Both the position numbers and the translations under genes were made by a program. This document shows positions 7,194-47,667 of a stretch of DNA of 62,994 nt, one piece after another. This DNA comes from a virus: positions 1 through 62,994 of IMG/VR virus record IMGVR_UViG_3300048839_001305. One strand, given 5' to 3'. The notes beneath the pieces are model-generated. The model worked only from the letters and a program-made list of their open reading frames with translations, was not told the DNA's origin and did not search any database. Within the stretch, counting starts at the first letter, position 1, and each line of letters begins with the position of its first letter.

Positions 7194-7880
7194 ATGGCAC
7201 GCCAAAGCGACATAGCGTTGCAGCGCCAACTGAGAGAACGGTTGGTCGCAGCAGGGTACGAGAGACCATTGGATATTCGATATATCCGGCACGAGAACGG
7301 TAAACACCTTGATGCCGCTGTGTTCTATCGCGGCACTGCCCCGGTAGCCATTTTCACTACTGACGGCGAAACCTGGAGCCGGCAGAGCGATTCGGCCGCC
7401 GGACTGGAGCTTAGCGCAGGAGAACAGCCGGCACCATCGCGAGGTGAGAGTCGGGCGCCCCATGAACCCATCGAGCGCGTAGCCGATGCGTTCATGGGCA
7501 TCCATGCGCTAATTGGCGATCTGATTAAGAGGCTGACACACCTCGATGAGCAGAGTGAGGGCGCGGCGCTTTCGGCCTCACTCACCGTCACACGCTTCGG
7601 AGGCGTTCCGGTGCTGGTGGATAAGAGCTTTACCCCGGAGCGCGATTTGGCGTGGCGCAGCACCGAACACACTCCGCTGTGGAGTCTGTATTGGCGCGAG
7701 CCAGTAGCCGCCGGATGCGACTCAGTGTCCTGGTTCGTCTCGCTTGACAAGGGCGCGGACGGCCCACTGCACCTGCACGTGCGCCGGGTGCGCGACCGTG
7801 GGCGAAGGGCAGTCACGGACTGGATGATCGAGGTGGACGGGCTAGAAGAAGTCGCGGCCGACCAGGGACAAACATCATGA
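7194..7880 (+). CDS. Hypothetical protein
   Basis: 228 residues. Two ATGs lie in tandem (7191, 7194); 7194 gives better spacing from GAGGG. The C-terminal half reads as beta-rich (LTVTRFGGVPVLVDKSF, LYWREPVAAG, SWFVSLDKG). The middle is low-complexity. It overlaps the ParB-like gene by 4 bases (ATGA) and may be co-translated with it. No family recognised. Confidence 0.65.
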   Translation: MARQSDIALQRQLRERLVAAGYERPLDIRYIRHENGKHLDAAVFYRGTAPVAIFTTDGETWSRQSDSAAGLELSAGEQPAPSRGESRAPHEPIERVADAFMGIHALIGDLIKRLTHLDEQSEGAALSASLTVTRFGGVPVLVDKSFTPERDLAWRSTEHTPLWSLYWREPVAAGCDSVSWFVSLDKGADGPLHLHVRRVRDRGRRAVTDWMIEVDGLEEVAADQGQTS

Positions 7881-8932
7881 GTAACACACAACCAATTCAG
7901 CCGCAGGCCATCGAGGCCGAAGGGGCCATTGAGGCCCTCCATATCCCCGTCGCGCTCATCGACCGCGACCCGGCCCAGCCGCGCACCCACTTCGATGAGG
8001 CGGCGCTGGCGGCGTTGGCCGAGAGCATCCGGCAGCACGGCGTCATCCAGCCCATCGAGGTTGAAGAGACGCCCGACGGCCGCTACCGCATTCACCACGG
8101 CGAGCGGCGCTGGCGGGCGTCGAAGTTGGCCGGGCGGGAAACCATCCCGGCCGTCGTCGCCCCGGCGCGCGCGGCCGATGAACGGCTGGTGCGCCAGGCG
8201 CTGGAGAACCTCCACCGCGAAGACCTCAACCCCATCGACGAGGCCCGCGTCTACCAGGGTCTCATCGACCACGGCTGGGCGCGGCTGCGCATCGCCCGCG
8301 AGACGGGCAAGTCGCTACCGACCATCAACGGCCGGCTGGCGTGGCTGAAGCTGGAGCCGGAGGTTCAGCGCCTCGTGGCCCTGGGCCATCTGTCCAAGGA
8401 CGGCCGCCTGGCCGAGAAGCTCTACGTCCTCCCGCCGGAGGCCCGCGTGCCGCTGGCCGGGAAGCTGGCACGGCACGGGCTGGGGTTGCAGGCGTCCCTG
8501 CGGGCGTGCGACCGGGCGGCCGAGGAGATCGCCCGCAAGGCCGAGGCGCTGGAGGAGGGCCGCCGGCACCACGCCGACCGCGCCGCTGGCGTGCCCAGAG
8601 CCAATGGGGCGTTGGGGACGGGCGACCCGCCCGGCCGCAACGGTATGGCCCATCCTGTGCCGCTGGTGGCCTACGGGGCGGGCGGCCGTCGGGCGGTGAC
8701 GGCGACCATCGGCGCGGCGGCCGAGGCCATGTGCCGGCAGTGCGCGGTGCGCCCGGCCGGGGCCGACGTCATCCCGGCGTGGGAGATCGTCGAGCGGGCG
8801 GCGGCCGAGACGTGCGCCGCCTGCGTCAGGCGCGACGGCCCGCCCATCCCCAGGGTGTGCGAACTGTGCCAGGGGGCGGCGCTGTTGGGGCGGCTGGTGG
8901 GGGCGGTGAAGGCGCAGGAGGCGGCGGAGTAA
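7877..8932 (+). CDS. ParB/Spo0J-family DNA-binding protein
   Basis: 351 residues. The ParB N-terminal (sulfiredoxin-like) domain spans about 22-125: IPVALIDRDPAQPR, the conserved GERRWRA (75-81) that forms the CTP-binding core in chromosomal ParB, and ENLHREDLNPIDEA (110-123). A helix-turn-helix follows at about 140-165. The C-terminus is not the usual ParB dimer domain; it carries three cysteine pairs (CRQC, CAAC, CELC), suggesting zinc sites. It lies 3 bases upstream of a PAPS-reductase-like gene, an arrangement like the IbrB/IbrA pair, which favours a DNA-modification or regulatory role over plasmid partition. Confidence 0.85.
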   Translation: MSNTQPIQPQAIEAEGAIEALHIPVALIDRDPAQPRTHFDEAALAALAESIRQHGVIQPIEVEETPDGRYRIHHGERRWRASKLAGRETIPAVVAPARAADERLVRQALENLHREDLNPIDEARVYQGLIDHGWARLRIARETGKSLPTINGRLAWLKLEPEVQRLVALGHLSKDGRLAEKLYVLPPEARVPLAGKLARHGLGLQASLRACDRAAEEIARKAEALEEGRRHHADRAAGVPRANGALGTGDPPGRNGMAHPVPLVAYGAGGRRAVTATIGAAAEAMCRQCAVRPAGADVIPAWEIVERAAAETCAACVRRDGPPIPRVCELCQGAALLGRLVGAVKAQEAAE

Positions 8933-8935
8933 CAC

Positions 8936-10090
8936 ATGAAACAGGTGTCCCTCTTCGACGACCAGCGCCTGACTTTGAACGGCGCGATTGAACTCAGTCT
9001 GGCGAGTCTGGAAGAGTACGGCCGCCGCTACCGGCATTGGGCCGTGGCCTACTCCGGCGGCAAAGACTCCTCAGCCACGGTTGCGTTTGTGGCCTGGGCT
9101 ATTAAGTCCGACAAGGTTGAGCGGCCGGACTCACTCACCATCCTCTACGCCGACACGCGCCAGGAGTACCCGCCGCTGCACGCCACGGCCGTGCAGGTGT
9201 TGGCCGCCCTGCGGCGCGACGGATTCGACAGCCGCGTCGTGCAGCCGGCGCTGGACGACCGCTTCTACGTCTACATGCTTGGCTACGGCGTGCCGCCGCC
9301 GTCGAACCGCTTCCGCTGGTGTACACCAAAGCTGAAGATCGAGCCGATGGAGCAGGCGTTGGAAGCGCGTCGCGCCGAGACGGGCGAGAAGTTCCTGATG
9401 ATCAACGGCGTGCGGCTGGGCGAGAGCGCGGCCCGCGACCAGCGCATCGCCCTCTCCTGTTCCAAGGACTCAGGCGAGTGCGGCCAGGGCTGGTTTCAGG
9501 TTCGGCCGCCGGACGCGGCCGGGGACACGCTCGCGCCGCTCCTCCACTGGCGTCTGTGCCACGTCTACGACTGGCTCTACTTCGAGAACGGCCGTCACGG
9601 CTACCCGGAAGTGGCCGGGATTGCCGACGTGTACGGCGACGACGAGGTGCGCACCGGCTGCATCGGTTGCCCGCTGGCCAGCCGTGACACCGCGCTGGAG
9701 AACCTCGTCCGCCGGCCGGAGTGGGCGCACCTGCGCCCGCTCCTAGAACTCAAGGGCATGTTCCGCGAGATGAAGCGGGCCGAGTGGCGCAAGCGCAAGG
9801 CCGAGCCGGAGCGCCGCCAGGATGGGGGATGGTCCAAGAACGGCCAGCGCAAGGGGCCGCTGACGATGGCCGCCCGCGCCCACTGGCTGGACAAGGTGCT
9901 CGACGTGCAGCGCCGCTCCGGCGTCGATCTTATCAACGCTGAGGAGGAGGCGCGCATCCGCGAGATGTGGGCACTGGACATGTGGCCGCGCAAGTGGTCG
10001 GCGGCCGACATCGACGCCGACGAGCTGATCGACCGCATCTCGTCCGTCGGCGGCGACCTGGTGGTGCAGCCGGTGATGGTGAAGCCGTGA
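8936..10090 (+). CDS. PAPS reductase/DndC-like ATP pyrophosphatase
   Basis: 384 residues. The PP-loop SGGKDS (40-45) binds ATP in the N-type ATP pyrophosphatase fold. RFRWCTPKLKI (C129) and RTGCIGC (241-245) provide conserved cysteines as in DndC-like proteins, where they hold an iron-sulfur cluster used for sulfur transfer to the DNA backbone. Arg/Lys-rich segments in the last third suit nucleic-acid contact. No dndB, dndD or dndE partner was found nearby; the only obvious partner is the ParB-like gene 3 bases upstream. Possible roles are DNA modification, sulfate metabolism or an IbrA-like function. Confidence 0.8.
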   Translation: MKQVSLFDDQRLTLNGAIELSLASLEEYGRRYRHWAVAYSGGKDSSATVAFVAWAIKSDKVERPDSLTILYADTRQEYPPLHATAVQVLAALRRDGFDSRVVQPALDDRFYVYMLGYGVPPPSNRFRWCTPKLKIEPMEQALEARRAETGEKFLMINGVRLGESAARDQRIALSCSKDSGECGQGWFQVRPPDAAGDTLAPLLHWRLCHVYDWLYFENGRHGYPEVAGIADVYGDDEVRTGCIGCPLASRDTALENLVRRPEWAHLRPLLELKGMFREMKRAEWRKRKAEPERRQDGGWSKNGQRKGPLTMAARAHWLDKVLDVQRRSGVDLINAEEEARIREMWALDMWPRKWSAADIDADELIDRISSVGGDLVVQPVMVKP

Positions 10091-15880: not shown

Positions 15881-15918
15881 CCCCGCCCTTCTTCACCACC
15901 AGTTCACGCGAGTTTCGG

Positions 15919-15944
15919 CCGCCCCCCTAGACAACGGGGGGCGG
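15919..15944 (+). terminator. Perfect 9-base hairpin after the DUF2958 gene
   Basis: CCGCCCCCC, loop TAGACAAC, GGGGGGCGG, followed by TCTGTGTT. A moderately U-containing tail makes this the better terminator candidate of the region. Its loop overlaps a possible -35 box for the TACAAT at 15952. Confidence 0.55.
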
Positions 15945-15967
15945 TCTGTGTTACAATGCAGGAAATC

Positions 15968-25012: not shown

Positions 25013-25053
25013 ATTCTAGCATATTGCAACGAATCTCAACCATGTGCTACAAT
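25013..25053. promoter_or_regulatory. Divergent promoters sharing the recurring motif (site c)
   Basis: Minus strand: TTGAGA, 15 bases, TAGAAT (25018-25013) driving the ParB-like gene, with the -10 box ending 7 bases before its ATG. Plus strand: TTGCAA (25024-25029), 18 bases, TACAAT (25048-25053) driving genes to the right. Both span the motif GGTTGAGATTCGTTGC (minus, 25041-25026). One bound protein could control both directions. Confidence 0.65.
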
Positions 25054-29183: not shown

Positions 29184-29476
29184 GCTACCTTACCGACTTA
29201 CCAGGCCCCGGTTATCCGGCCAGTTCAGCGACCTGGCCTTCTTCGGTCACATACGTGGCCCTCATTTGCCCGCGCTGCGGGGCCAACCACCGGCTGGAGC
29301 AGTGCCCGCAGGTCAAGGCCATCGAGTACCACGAGGACGGCCGCACCATCCGGCGTGTCGAGTTTTTCGACGGGACGGGCGCGCGGCCGTTGGAGATGAC
29401 AATTAGCGTCGGCCCTACGTTGTCAGAAGGAGCCGTGGTTGTGCACCAGGCGTGGCGTATTGGCCGGAATTGTTGA
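29180..29476 (+). CDS. Small zinc-knuckle protein
   Basis: 98 residues from the ATGA overlap. CPRCGANHRLEQC (about 30-42) is a short zinc knuckle. The remainder is beta-rich. It ends 22 bases before the RNA ligase. Confidence 0.55.
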   Translation: MSYLTDLPGPGYPASSATWPSSVTYVALICPRCGANHRLEQCPQVKAIEYHEDGRTIRRVEFFDGTGARPLEMTISVGPTLSEGAVVVHQAWRIGRNC

Positions 29477-29498
29477 CCGAGGAAGAGGAACGGAAAGA

Positions 29499-30140
29499 GT
29501 GATTACCTATCCCAAGATCGAGACCCTGTACGACCGCGATCCGCGCACCTTCAAGGTGCTGCCGGACACGTTGCGCCACCCGGAGTTTGCGCTGATCGCC
29601 CGCTGGCGACTGACCGAGAAGATCGACGGCACGAACATCCGCGTAGGGCTGTCGCCCGACGGCCGCGTGACGTTCGGCGGGCGCACGGACAAGGCCGAGA
29701 TTCCACCCCACCTGCTGACCTACCTGACCGCGACCTTCCCGTCCGAGCGCGTGGCCGCCGCCTTCGACCCCGGCGCGGAGGTGGTGCTGTTCGGCGAGGG
29801 GTACGGCGAGAAGATACAAAGCGGCGGCGACTACCGAACGGGCGTGAGCTTCCGGCTGTTCGACGTGCGCGTGGGCGACTGGTGGCTGAACGCGGCCGAC
29901 GTTGACGACGTGGCCGCCAAGCTAGGCATCCAGACAGCCCCCTGTCTTCAGCGGGACATCATGTTCGTGCGCTATCCCGCGTCGGCCGAGGAACTGCGCG
30001 ATCTGTTGCCGGAGAGCATCGTCGCCGGGGAAGAGGGTCGCGGCCGGCCGGCCGAGGGCATCATCGCCCGCACCGACCCACTGCTGTTCATGCGCGACGG
30101 CCGCCGGGTGATGTGGAAGTTGAAGTTCAAGGACTTCTAG
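29499..30140 (+). CDS. RNA ligase (nucleotidyltransferase superfamily)
   Basis: 213 residues from GTG 29499. All core motifs are present: EKIDGTN (40-46) with Lys41 as the adenylated nucleophile, FGEGYG (98-103, motif IIIa region), FRLFDVRV (118-125, motif III), AEGIIAR (185-191, motif IV) and WKLKFKDF (206-213, motif V). It uses ATP to join RNA ends. Phage RNA ligases repair tRNAs cut by host anticodon nucleases. No polynucleotide kinase partner was seen. The protein ends right after motif V, so it is a minimal catalytic domain. Confidence 0.85.
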   Translation: MITYPKIETLYDRDPRTFKVLPDTLRHPEFALIARWRLTEKIDGTNIRVGLSPDGRVTFGGRTDKAEIPPHLLTYLTATFPSERVAAAFDPGAEVVLFGEGYGEKIQSGGDYRTGVSFRLFDVRVGDWWLNAADVDDVAAKLGIQTAPCLQRDIMFVRYPASAEELRDLLPESIVAGEEGRGRPAEGIIARTDPLLFMRDGRRVMWKLKFKDF

Positions 30141-36469: not shown

Positions 36470-36485
36470 GCAACCAATCTCAACG
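36470..36485 (-). promoter_or_regulatory. Recurring operator-like motif, site d
   Basis: Reads CGTTGAGATTGGTTGC on the minus strand, close to the consensus GGTTGAGATTCGTCCC. It is centred about 30 bases upstream of the -35 box at 36505, the position expected for an activator or an upstream operator. Confidence 0.5.
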
Positions 36486-36504
36486 AATTGAGTATATCTA
36501 CCTA

Positions 36505-36599: not shown

Positions 36600-37037
36600 A
36601 TGTCTAACACGCCATTCCAGACTGTTATCGGGATGCTGCGGCGGGCGGCGGCTTTTGACAAGCTCCCCCCACAGCAGCAGGCGGCCCTGCGGGCGCAGGT
36701 GAGCCGTCTGAGCAAGACGACCACTGACCCGCAGATCGCTGAGGTGCTGACCCAGATTCGGGCCACCATCGGTGAGGCCGAACGCAAGGACACCGGCGGG
36801 ATGACCGTCGAGGACTTGTTGGACGAGCACCGCGCCGGGTACGCCCACTACGATCCGCGCCGCCGGGCCGCTTTCAAGAGCCGCATGACCCGGCTGGCGA
36901 AAGCCGCCGAAGAAGACGGCGACGCGGACGCGGTGGCAACGTTGACGGCGCTGGCGGACGAAATCCGGGCCTCTGAGGAATCGGAGGCGCGGGAAGAAAT
37001 CCGCAAGCTGGCTGAGGCGCTGCGGAGCGCCAACTAA
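36600..37037 (+). CDS. Helical protein between terminase and capsid, possible head-assembly factor
   Basis: 145 residues, ATG 36600 with AGGAG upstream; GTG 36540 is unlikely because it coincides with the predicted transcript start. Almost all helical (PPQQQAALRAQVSRLSKTTT, then ARSEESEAREEIRKL-type segments). It is transcribed from its own good promoter and followed by a strong terminator, so it is a single-gene unit and may be expressed at a high level. Scaffold-like or regulatory roles are both possible. Confidence 0.7.
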   Translation: MSNTPFQTVIGMLRRAAAFDKLPPQQQAALRAQVSRLSKTTTDPQIAEVLTQIRATIGEAERKDTGGMTVEDLLDEHRAGYAHYDPRRRAAFKSRMTRLAKAAEEDGDADAVATLTALADEIRASEESEAREEIRKLAEALRSAN

Positions 37038-37066
37038 GTAGGGTATCACCGCCGCCAATCACAGCC

Positions 37067-37090
37067 GGGGCCGCCGCAGGGCGGCCCCTT
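37067..37090 (+). terminator. Terminator after gene 36600
   Basis: GGGGCCGCC, loop GCAG, GGCGGCCCC: a perfect 9-base stem followed by TTTGG. It lies 30 bases after stop 37037 and would end the transcript of the promoter at 36505. Confidence 0.7.
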
Positions 37091-37297
37091 TGGTGGGCCG
37101 GATAGATAGCTGGTGGGGCGGGCGCGGGCCGACGCGGGCGGCGCGGCAGACGAGTGACAGACGGCCGTCAGGTGGGGACGAACGGCCGCCGGCCGGATGC
37201 CGGATTGCGCCCCGGGCCGGACGCTGGCCGACGCGGCCGTGGCCGGTCGACGTGGGTGGGACTTTTTACCCGCCTCGCCGACGGCCGCCGGGCCTTC

Positions 37298-37318
37298 TCT
37301 CAACCAGTCTCAACGAAT
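37298..37318 (-). promoter_or_regulatory. Recurring operator-like motif, site e
   Basis: The plus strand carries CTCAACCAGTCTCAACGAAT, with CAACC and CAACG 10 bases apart, so the half-sites face the same side of the helix. It directly abuts the -35 box of the capsid promoter. Confidence 0.55.
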
Positions 37319-37320
37319 AT

Positions 37321-37348
37321 TTGACGCCGATAGCGGAATTCCTATAAT
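37321..37348 (+). promoter_or_regulatory. Sigma70-type promoter upstream of the capsid gene
   Basis: TTGACG (37321-37326), 16 bases, TATAAT (37343-37348): the best -35/-10 match in the window. Predicted start near 37355. Confidence 0.8.
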
Positions 37349-37354
37349 CCGGGG

Positions 37355-37464
37355 CAGACAAACGAATAACACGCGGCCGGGCCACCATACCCGGTGACGC
37401 GCCAGGAACCGGATAACGACCACGCGGCGCACCCTTCACACGAGGGGTGCGCCGCTTTTCGTTT
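37355..37464 (+). ncRNA. Candidate short transcript or attenuated leader
   Basis: The unit bounded by the promoter (start near 37355) and the terminator (to 37464) would give an RNA of about 110 nucleotides. It has no convincing ORF. A small stem CCGGG/CCCGG (about 37377-37394) lies before the terminator. It could be a stable small RNA or the attenuated leader of the capsid mRNA. Inferred only from flanking signals. Confidence 0.4.
37424..37464 (+). terminator. Classical rho-independent terminator in the capsid leader
   Basis: GCGGCGCACCC (37424-37434) and GGGTGCGCCGC (37445-37455) form a perfect 11-base stem, followed by TTTTCGTTT. This is the most canonical terminator here, yet it stands between the promoter and the capsid start codon. 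Confidence 0.8.
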
Positions 37465-37478
37465 GGGGCAGGGGCAGT

Positions 37479-39800
37479 ATGAGCAAGACGAACAAGCAGA
37501 CCCGATTCAGGGAAGTGCAGGGCGAAGTCGCCCTGCTGGAGCAGGCCGGTGAGGCGGCCGCCGGGCCGCGCCGCATCCGTGGCGTGGGGGCGGTGGCCGA
37601 CGCGGTCAACCAGAATCGCCGTTTGTACCCGGCCGACGTGCTCCGCGAGGCAGTCCGCATGGCGCAAGCCAAGCTCACTCGCTCGCTCAGCCAGGGCAAC
37701 ATCCTCGGAGAAGCCGACCATCCGCCGTATGGGCCGCGCGTACTGGAAACGGTCGTCAAGTGGGAGGCCATCACCTTCAACGAGACGACCCGCGCCGTGG
37801 AGGTGGAGGGGACCATTATCCCCACCGACGCGGGCCGGAACGTGCTGACGCTCATGGAGGCCGGTGTCTTCCCCGGACTGTCGCTCAGAGGGCATGGCGA
37901 TAGCCAGTACGACATCGAGAAAGATATTGAGACCGTGACGCGCCTTGAGTTGATCGGGTTCGACCTGGTCTTTGAGCCGTCCTTCGAGGACGCCGGGGTC
38001 ACGGCGCTGGAACACAAACAACATCAGGAGAGGGGAGAGCCAACGATGGAACCGAAGAACGAAGATAAGGGCGTCGTGGACGCCAAGCTGGCGGCCGAGG
38101 TGCAAGAGCAGAGCCGCCGGCGCGAGGACGCCGAGAAGGCGCTGGCCGAAGCCAAGCGCCGCGAGGAAGAGCAGGCGGCCGAGGTCAAGCGGCTGGCCGA
38201 TGAGAAGGGCAAGCTGGAAGAGGCCGCCCGCGCCCGCGCCGTGGCCGACGCCATCGCCGTTGAGACGGCCGCGCTGCCCTACGACGCCGTTGTGGTCGCC
38301 CGCATCCGCGAGGCGGCCGAGGGCGCGGGTCTGGCCGACGCCGACGCCGTCCGCAAGTTCGTGGCCGGCGAGCGGGCGCGTGTGGACGCGCTGGCCGAGG
38401 CGCTCAAGCGCGAGGCCGAGAAGGCGGCCGAGGCCAAGCGGATCGAGGAAGAGAAGGCCGAGGCTGACCGCCGCGCCGAGGCGCGGGGCTTCAAGGTCAA
38501 CGGCCCGGTCATCGAGACGGCCGCCGGTGTGCCGGAGTACGCCACCTACAGCCACGAGCTGCGCGAGCAGTTGCGCGTGCGCGGTCTGGGCACCGAGTAC
38601 GACGCCGCCAAGGGCCAGAGCCGCGCCGAGACGCTGGCGCGCAAGATGCTGGAGGCGTTCGACAAGCAGTATCAGCGCCAGCTCATCGCCGAGCAGGCCG
38701 CCCTGCGCGAGGCTACGGCCACGTCCGACCTGAACCTGCCGACGCAGATCAGCCGGGCCATCATCGCCGAAGCCGTGCCGGAGATCGTCGCCGCCAACGT
38801 CTTTGACTTTGGTCTGATCGACGGCTCGCCGACGCGGGTGTGGTTCGAGGCGTATGCCGGTGAGTCCGGCTCCGCGCCGGCCGTCACCGATGAGGTCGTC
38901 GCCGCCGACCACGATGCGTGGGTCGCCCTGGCCAACAAGCACCTGCGCCGCAGCCCGGCCCCGGTCGTCACCAACTCGGCCGGCTCCACGACCTACACGG
39001 AGTGGACGGACTACATGATCGACCACGCCGACGGCCGTCTGTACGCCTTCTCGACCGGCACGATCACCGACGCCCAGTCCCTCAAGATCGACTACACCTA
39101 CGACAAGGTCGCCGTGGGCGAGGGTGGGGCCATCCAGCGCGGCAAGGGCACGCTGGCCTACCAGGACGTGTCGGTCGCCGCCAAGCGCCTGGCCGGCCTG
39201 GTCAACGACGAGGCCGTCGCCTTCGGCCAGTCGCAGCTCGGTTGGGACCCGGTGACGCGGGTCGTCTCGATGCTCATCCGTGAGCTGCGCGAGATGATCG
39301 ACAACGCCGTCTTCTCCAAGGCCATCGCCGCATCGGTGCAGTCGGGTAACTTCGGCGGCTTGTGGATGGCCGCCTCCGACACCGAGTCCGACCTGGTGAA
39401 GCAGATGGGCATCGCCAAGGTAGCCGTCGAGAACGACTACTACATGCCGCGCTACTTCGTCATGTCCAAGACCAACGCCGACCGTCTGTCCAACTGGACG
39501 GGTCTGACGCGCGAGGGCTTCCCCGATGCGCTGCTGGGCGCGGCCGGGTTCGCCAATATGCAGGTCAAGGGTCTGCCCATCTTCTCGACCACGGCCATGC
39601 CCGACACCCACATCCTGGTTGTCCACCCCGAACTGGTGCAGCACCGGGTGCTGTCCTCGCGGCCGATGTCGCTCAAGGGGCCGTTCCAGTACCGCGACAC
39701 CAACGGCAACCTGGTGGCGGCTCAGGAGTGGTACATCGAAGAGTACAACGGGCAGTGGGCATTCATCAACAACAAGGGCGGCTACGTCCGCGTCGCCTAG
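37479..39800 (+). CDS. Fused prohead protease, scaffold and major capsid protein
   Basis: 773 residues, ATG 37479. Residues about 1-185 resemble a prohead protease of the T4 gp21 class (GVGAVADAVNQNRRLYP, GNILGEADHPPYG with a conserved His, GLSLRGHGDSQYD with the Ser region). Residues about 195-340 are a long Glu/Lys/Ala coiled coil, as expected of an internal scaffold. Residues about 345-773 look like an HK97-fold capsid protein (LPTQISRAIIAEAVPEIVAA, then GLWMAAS, YFVMSKTNADRL, a C-terminal EEYNGQWAFINNKG). Cleavage after assembly would release the capsid subunit. All three parts are in one uninterrupted ORF. Confidence 0.85.
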   Translation: MSKTNKQTRFREVQGEVALLEQAGEAAAGPRRIRGVGAVADAVNQNRRLYPADVLREAVRMAQAKLTRSLSQGNILGEADHPPYGPRVLETVVKWEAITFNETTRAVEVEGTIIPTDAGRNVLTLMEAGVFPGLSLRGHGDSQYDIEKDIETVTRLELIGFDLVFEPSFEDAGVTALEHKQHQERGEPTMEPKNEDKGVVDAKLAAEVQEQSRRREDAEKALAEAKRREEEQAAEVKRLADEKGKLEEAARARAVADAIAVETAALPYDAVVVARIREAAEGAGLADADAVRKFVAGERARVDALAEALKREAEKAAEAKRIEEEKAEADRRAEARGFKVNGPVIETAAGVPEYATYSHELREQLRVRGLGTEYDAAKGQSRAETLARKMLEAFDKQYQRQLIAEQAALREATATSDLNLPTQISRAIIAEAVPEIVAANVFDFGLIDGSPTRVWFEAYAGESGSAPAVTDEVVAADHDAWVALANKHLRRSPAPVVTNSAGSTTYTEWTDYMIDHADGRLYAFSTGTITDAQSLKIDYTYDKVAVGEGGAIQRGKGTLAYQDVSVAAKRLAGLVNDEAVAFGQSQLGWDPVTRVVSMLIRELREMIDNAVFSKAIAASVQSGNFGGLWMAASDTESDLVKQMGIAKVAVENDYYMPRYFVMSKTNADRLSNWTGLTREGFPDALLGAAGFANMQVKGLPIFSTTAMPDTHILVVHPELVQHRVLSSRPMSLKGPFQYRDTNGNLVAAQEWYIEEYNGQWAFINNKGGYVRVA

Positions 39801-39823: not shown

Positions 39824-39860
39824 GGGGCGGGTAGTCGCGCGGGCGGCCGCCCGCCCCTTT
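39824..39860 (+). terminator. Terminator-like hairpin after the capsid gene
   Basis: GGGGCGGG (39824-39831) pairs with CCCGCCCC (39850-39857), with a second GC stem inside, then TTTAAGG. It could set the level of capsid mRNA relative to downstream head genes. It ends 17 bases before ATG 39875. Confidence 0.6.
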
Positions 39861-47089: not shown

Positions 47090-47620
47090 ATGGCAAACAA
47101 GACCTATGGCAAGTTCACCCGCGGCCTGCGTGATATCAAGATCACCAACGCCGCGGGCACGGTGCAGGAAGACCTGGACGCGGCGGTGACGTTCACCTTC
47201 AAGCCGACCGTTTCGACGGCCGTCCTGCGCGGCGATGACGTGGAAAAGGTGCGCTACACCTCGGTTTCCGGTGGTGAAGGCACGCTGTCGGCCGGCGGTT
47301 ACTCGTCGGCCGCCCTGGCGATCATGCTGGGCGTCACCCTGACGGTGGCCGGTTCTTCGCCCAATGAGACGACGACGATGGACATCCCGGAAGGGCTGGT
47401 CTTGCCGTCGTTCAAGATTTACGGCATGGCCTACGACAAGAGCGGTGGGGCCAAGCAGGTGCTTCTGGGCAACTGCACCCTGACCGAGCTGCCGGAAATC
47501 TCCTTCCAGGACGAGGAGTTCTACGTCACCAACCTCAACGTGGGGGTGTCGGCCGATTCCAACGGCCGCATCGCCCGCTACATCCAGCAGGAGACGGCCG
47601 CGGCGCTGCCGACGAGCTAG
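47090..47620 (+). CDS. Major tail tube protein
   Basis: 176 residues, ATG 47090 with GGGGAG upstream. Beta-rich (VQEDLDAAVTFTFKPTVSTA, SGGEGTLSAGGYSSAALAIM, YDKSGGAKQVLLGNCTLTEL, EEFYVTNLNVGVSA), with the usual length for tube proteins of siphoviruses. It lies directly upstream of the chaperone and tape measure genes, the conserved order in this morphotype. Lower arginine and higher threonine content than accessory genes fit a structural protein. Confidence 0.8.
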   Translation: MANKTYGKFTRGLRDIKITNAAGTVQEDLDAAVTFTFKPTVSTAVLRGDDVEKVRYTSVSGGEGTLSAGGYSSAALAIMLGVTLTVAGSSPNETTTMDIPEGLVLPSFKIYGMAYDKSGGAKQVLLGNCTLTELPEISFQDEEFYVTNLNVGVSADSNGRIARYIQQETAAALPTS

Positions 47621-47637: not shown

Positions 47638-47667
47638 GGGGAGGGGGCGGACGGCCGCCCTCTCCCC
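47638..47667 (+). terminator. 13-base hairpin after the tail tube gene
   Basis: GGGGAGGGGGCGG, loop ACGG, CCGCCCTCTCCCC: all positions pair, with one G-U. It lies 21 bases before ATG 47689. Partial termination here would make tube protein more abundant than chaperones. Confidence 0.6.

Follow-up and report, generated by a model that had tools for sequence, protein, structure and literature searches.

How is a phage capsid gene transcribed when the best promoter of its contig is followed, still ahead of the gene, by the contig's best terminator? The question arises in an entire IMG/VR record of 62,994 bases, referred to here as the window. The original prediction had named TTGACG-16-TATAAT and a downstream hairpin as the window's best promoter and best terminator, placed them 70–80 bases apart with a capsid ATG 14 bases beyond, and proposed either that capsid expression needs antitermination or that the unit makes a small RNA of about 110 nucleotides. 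Consensus-based scans over the full window agree with this layout (Table 1): promoter and terminator each rank first, 75 bp separate the -10 element from the terminator stem, and the capsid ATG lies 23 bp beyond the stem and about 14–16 bp beyond the T-run. The downstream gene is indeed a capsid gene, and a relative of its product carries the annotation 'putative phage capsid protein and protease'.

Table 1. Features at the capsid locus (window coordinates; L005 is the 100-kb contig of a near relative)
Feature	Coordinates	Strand	Details
Intrinsic terminator ending upstream gene 36600–37037	37067..37088	+	9-bp GC stem + TTT; d-score 30.6
Operator-like 10-bp direct repeat, abutting the -35	37301..37318	+	TCTCAACCAG TCTCAACGAA; 89% identical in L005
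Sigma70-type promoter	37321..37348	+	TTGACG-16-TATAAT; 11/12 matches; best in window
Predicted leader RNA, about 108 nt	37356..37463	+	Start placed from promoter, end from terminator position
Conserved RNA motif, 41 nt	37370..37410	+	Hairpin 37372–37401, loop CCACCAUA (37382–37389), flanking box CGCCAGGA (37400–37407)
Predicted intrinsic terminator hairpin of leader	37424..37455	+	GCGGCGCACCCTTC-ACAC-GAGGGGTGCGCCGC then TTTTCGTTTG; 14 pairs; dG -30.2; d-score 41
Shine-Dalgarno-like AGGGG of capsid gene, immediately 3' of leader terminator	37470..37474	+	Sequence
Prohead protease–major capsid fusion gene, 773 aa	37479..39800	+	PF03420 and phrog_207
Terminator-like hairpin 3' of capsid gene, abutting the next gene's ribosome-binding site	39824..39857	+	d-score 13.8

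The scan found no further forward sigma70-like promoter between 37349 and the contig end (62994). Upstream, gene 36600–37037 ends in an intrinsic terminator, and the capsid unit is therefore largely insulated from transcription arriving from that side; the region around this terminator (37060–37095) is 92% identical in L005. The gene itself encodes a 145-amino-acid all-helical protein and has its own promoter, operator and terminator. Its product is 92% identical in L005, gave no hit that passed the cut-off in Pfam, PHROGs or PDB, and has homologues seen only in the window phage and its relative. Elsewhere, the window carries genes for a phosphoadenosine phosphosulfate reductase and an RNA ligase (8936–10090 and 29439–30140) and a ParB-like gene (7877–8932). 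Another contig, IMGVR_UViG_3300048592_000798 (G001), starts at window position 39452, is 100% identical over the 1,548 bp compared and apparently extends beyond the right end of the window, so that the window probably represents part of a larger genome.

The pattern of the operator-like repeat next to the capsid promoter occurs twice in the window against 0 expected in shuffles. In both the window phage and its relative, the repeat also adjoins -10 elements elsewhere, and its position there varies. Repeats of this 10-bp CAACCA-N4-CAACGA type lie at 36471–36488, 37301–37318 and 25027–25042, placed upstream of the -35, within the spacer or downstream of the -10. They probably represent a repressor operator, and the copy at the capsid promoter would be a putative regulator binding site common to other promoters of the phage. 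A search of viral contigs for the operator together with TATAAT returned two matches in AT-rich coding DNA, attributed to chance. Another promoter of the window (15915–15957) has its -35 within the loop of a GC-rich hairpin and two operator-like repeats downstream, and a homologous arrangement is present in contig G002 near 57664.

Comparison with relatives shows which parts of the locus are maintained. L005 and a short contig, L004, are about 78% identical to the window at the DNA level; for L005, the value at fourfold sites of the capsid gene is 79%. The first 55 nt of the leader, its 5' domain, are 96% identical, and the stretch from the stem end to the ATG (37456–37478) is 92% identical; intergenic DNA at 37095–37295 reaches 44%. 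Both promoter hexamers are kept, with the spacer (37327–37342) only 56% identical and the DNA just upstream 39%. Judged by this conservation, the promoter–leader–terminator arrangement is not a product of chance, because the repeat, the -35, the -10, the leader start and the terminator are conserved in L005 and the surrounding intergenic DNA is not.

The terminator stem keeps its pairing through sequence changes in three species: the window phage, L005 and L132, a 73-kb contig whose capsid protein is 50% identical to the window's. In L132, stem pairs 1 and 6 are A-U instead of G-C. A GC-rich hairpin, a T-run behind it and conserved pairing identify 37424–37455 as a predicted intrinsic terminator. 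Its d-score is the highest on the + strand of the window (41; runners-up 30.6 at 37067–37088 and 13.8 at 39824–39857), on a scale that was developed on E. coli terminators, may not transfer and underrates the weak tR' hairpin of lambda, taken as a yardstick. In 37.5 kb of capsid coding DNA, 0 terminators scored above 0. Termination in the leader may be partial, since the T-run is interrupted (TTTTCGTTTG). The hairpin behind the capsid gene is also retained in L005 despite sequence changes, and L132 has a similar one behind its capsid gene. Both this hairpin and one at 47638–47667, after gene 47090–47620, are very stable, and each occupies the gap that separates the stop of one gene from the ribosome-binding site of the following one.

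Capsid searches of viral contigs and genomes yielded 94 distinct loci, 87 of them with at least 150 nt upstream. A terminator was found upstream of the capsid gene in 12 of the 87, a promoter in 12 and both in 7, a co-occurrence with a Fisher p of 8e-5 when related loci are treated as independent. In all seven carriers of both (the window, L015, which is the L005 locus, L132, L078, L160, L082 and L024), the promoter precedes the terminator, giving leaders of 68–251 nt. The capsid tree places the window, L015, L132, L160 and L078 in one clade (SH-aLRT 96) and L082 and L024 elsewhere, so the same order is observed in distant relatives. About 80 of the 87 relatives are without the pair, which we count against an attenuation reading. 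Coding-like sequence extends up to the capsid gene in several nearby non-carriers, and in the distant relative Rctr41k the capsid gene directly follows the terminase gene, without a leader. An initial strict scan limited to short loops had found 0 terminators before the capsid gene in 57 relatives and was superseded by the broader scans. Related capsid loci of the same order occur in genomes of the Chloroflexota class that holds an Anaerolineales MAG; to our knowledge, the control of phage genes has been little explored in this class.

The predicted leader RNA folds with -52.9 kcal/mol (z -5.5) and contains a conserved motif. This reads GCCGGG-CCACCAUA-CCCGGU with box CGCCAGGA in the window and GCCGGG-CCAUCAUA-CCCGGC with the same box in L132, where it also stands ahead of the terminator; the consensus across the phages is a GCCGGG-CCAYCAUA-CCCGG hairpin plus the CGCCAGGA box. 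A covariance model of the motif scores 65, 64 and 53 bits at three leaders, values that are no independent proof because the model was built from the same three sequences, one from each of three species. Each phage has one strong copy, and other matches are weak (at most 25 bits); second matches of 25 and 20 bits in G002 and G001 fall in non-homologous places and were taken as chance. The motif core pattern was found nowhere beyond these phages in 2.9 million viral contigs and had 0 matches in 396 genomes from the class to which G148, an Anaerolineales MAG, belongs. A model of the whole leader retrieved the window phage and its near relative only among the collected loci, and nothing from 298 genomes of the class holding an Anaerolineales MAG.

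In all three leaders the motif lies 10–16 nt ahead of the terminator, and its distance from the start site ranges from about 16 to 66 nt. Because the terminator distance is kept within this narrow range while the start-site distance varies, its placement suggests that the motif acts on termination. Four carriers (L078, L160, L082 and L024) are without the hairpin motif, so it may not be what relieves termination. As to the covarying structure that the original prediction proposed to seek in relatives, terminator pairs are preserved in L005 and L132, and covariation in the lower stem of the motif is weak, as the L132 pairing differs and leaves mismatches in the model.

We propose, at a probability of about 0.5, that the window phage has an attenuated capsid promoter, terminated promoter-proximally and relieved by antitermination, most likely via a factor acting on the motif. 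Polymerase would start near 37356 at the strong sigma70-type promoter, probably also under operator control, transcribe the hairpin motif and stop by default at 37456–37464, releasing the leader RNA of about 108 nt. Antitermination would most likely come from a factor, encoded by phage or host, that works through the CCAYCAUA hairpin and the CGCCAGGA box; under it, polymerase would continue into the capsid gene and the downstream structural genes. Capsid production would then probably be gated by polymerase passing the terminator. We infer from the DNA where transcription starts and stops, what kind of factor is involved and that it targets the motif. Between the two options of the original prediction, antitermination is favoured because the order recurs in distant relatives and the motif holds its distance to the terminator; a function in trans found no convincing phage target. 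No antiterminator gene was identified in the contig, where the upstream gene 36600–37037 is all-helical without a Q-like or HTH match; such a gene could be absent from the contig, which may be incomplete. More tentatively, and on balance unlikely, the hairpin and box could form a new class of antitermination RNA, one that works in cis, by recruiting a factor from phage or host or by direct action on polymerase, and so licenses capsid synthesis. The terminator-linked conserved RNA motif is a directly testable candidate for an antitermination signal gating the most abundant virion protein.

The main rival dispenses with regulated antitermination: with a very strong promoter and a leaky terminator, a set share of transcripts would run on into the capsid gene, and the hairpins would mainly stabilise or insulate the capsid mRNA. 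We regard this as a genuine minority possibility, consistent with the interrupted T-run and with stable hairpins on both sides of the capsid gene and another behind gene 47090–47620. The 5' end of the RNA can also pair with the terminator tail over 8 bp, although this was reached in 2.3% of shuffle trials and was dropped for insufficient significance. Such a set-point leaves the near-invariant CCAYCAUA loop and CGCCAGGA box unexplained, as a mere stability hairpin needs neither. The terminated leader could instead be the abundant product of a small RNA gene that targets mRNAs of phage or host in trans, and read-through into the capsid gene would then be a by-product. Both this and the antitermination reading predict a terminated RNA of about 108 nt, and the spacing of strong promoter and terminator, the conserved unpaired loop and 5' tail and the precedent of prophage IsrK (see below) fit a small RNA. 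We consider it doubtful, however: within the window the conserved 8-nt loop has its reverse complement only at the leader itself, the single 9-nt seed match at a gene start is a weak one, and the motif position follows the terminator, not the RNA 5' end. Rfam had no match in the window at the gathering threshold, and the best weak match of the leader, at 18.3 bits, fell short of its cut-off of 45. A second role of the leader as a small RNA is possible, and is unsupported within the sequenced part of the phage.

Switching by RNA alone, with the motif sensing a ligand or the ribosome and forming an antiterminator with the 5' arm of the terminator, appears quite improbable. In the window, the box contains GCGCC, which could pair with a GGCGC in that arm, and L079 has the same complementarity, but this is down to 3 bp in L132. 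With the terminator 3' arm blocked, the best alternative fold has -22.1 versus -48.6 kcal/mol, and a folding switch is thermodynamically weak by these predictions; neither a conserved leader peptide nor a known riboswitch family was found in the leader. Least probable, in our judgement, is a chance juxtaposition or a DNA element, such as a packaging site or operator, that mimics an RNA leader. The motif is indeed an inverted repeat in DNA, between the terminase and capsid genes; yet the promoter-then-terminator order recurs in distant lineages, changes in the terminator preserve pairs, and the orientation is consistently toward the capsid gene.

The best-known cases of late-gene control by promoter-proximal termination are the lambdoid phages that infect enterobacteria. 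Their late promoter pR' is followed by a leader with terminator tR', and termination there is relieved by the Q protein (PMC6606751). Both systems have a strong promoter, a short leader, an intrinsic terminator and late genes, with read-through as the gate (predicted here), and in the window phage this gate stands directly before the capsid gene. Binding elements of Q lie in the -35/-10 spacer, whereas the spacer at the window's capsid promoter is unconserved (56% versus L005), the direct repeats sit upstream of the -35 and are common to other promoters, and conservation falls on an element of the transcribed leader. A conserved AGACAAACGAATA near +1 to +13 does not, by inspection, fit NANNNT, the -10-like pause element looked for in the first transcribed bases. 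No Q homologue was found among the scanned genes of the contig, which may be incomplete, and gene 36600–37037 has no family or PDB fold match; identity with a Q site was rejected because the spacer is not conserved and a Q homologue was not found. The AlpA-controlled alpB promoter has terminator tB in its 5' leader, beginning 54 nt after the start site (PMC7969949). It shares with the window the placement of a terminator between promoter and first gene, but the putative AlpA binding element lies between -10 and -35, the region that is unconserved here.

Two further systems resemble the locus at the RNA level. At IsrK of prophage Gifsy-1, one promoter gives rise both to a short RNA that ends at a terminator and to a longer mRNA made by read-through (PMC4825925), the same two-product layout that we predict from one phage promoter here; IsrK controls an antirepressor gene, whereas no trans target was found for the window leader within the phage contig. 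The put RNAs of phage HK022 are antiterminators located near early promoters; each is about 70 nt long and comprises two stem-loops (PMC9378689). Like them, the window motif is a structured, putatively cis-acting RNA shortly downstream of a phage promoter and ahead of a terminator. Compared by shape, it has one hairpin and a box immediately before the terminator rather than two stem-loops, and put-like RNA control of the capsid gene is possible in principle.
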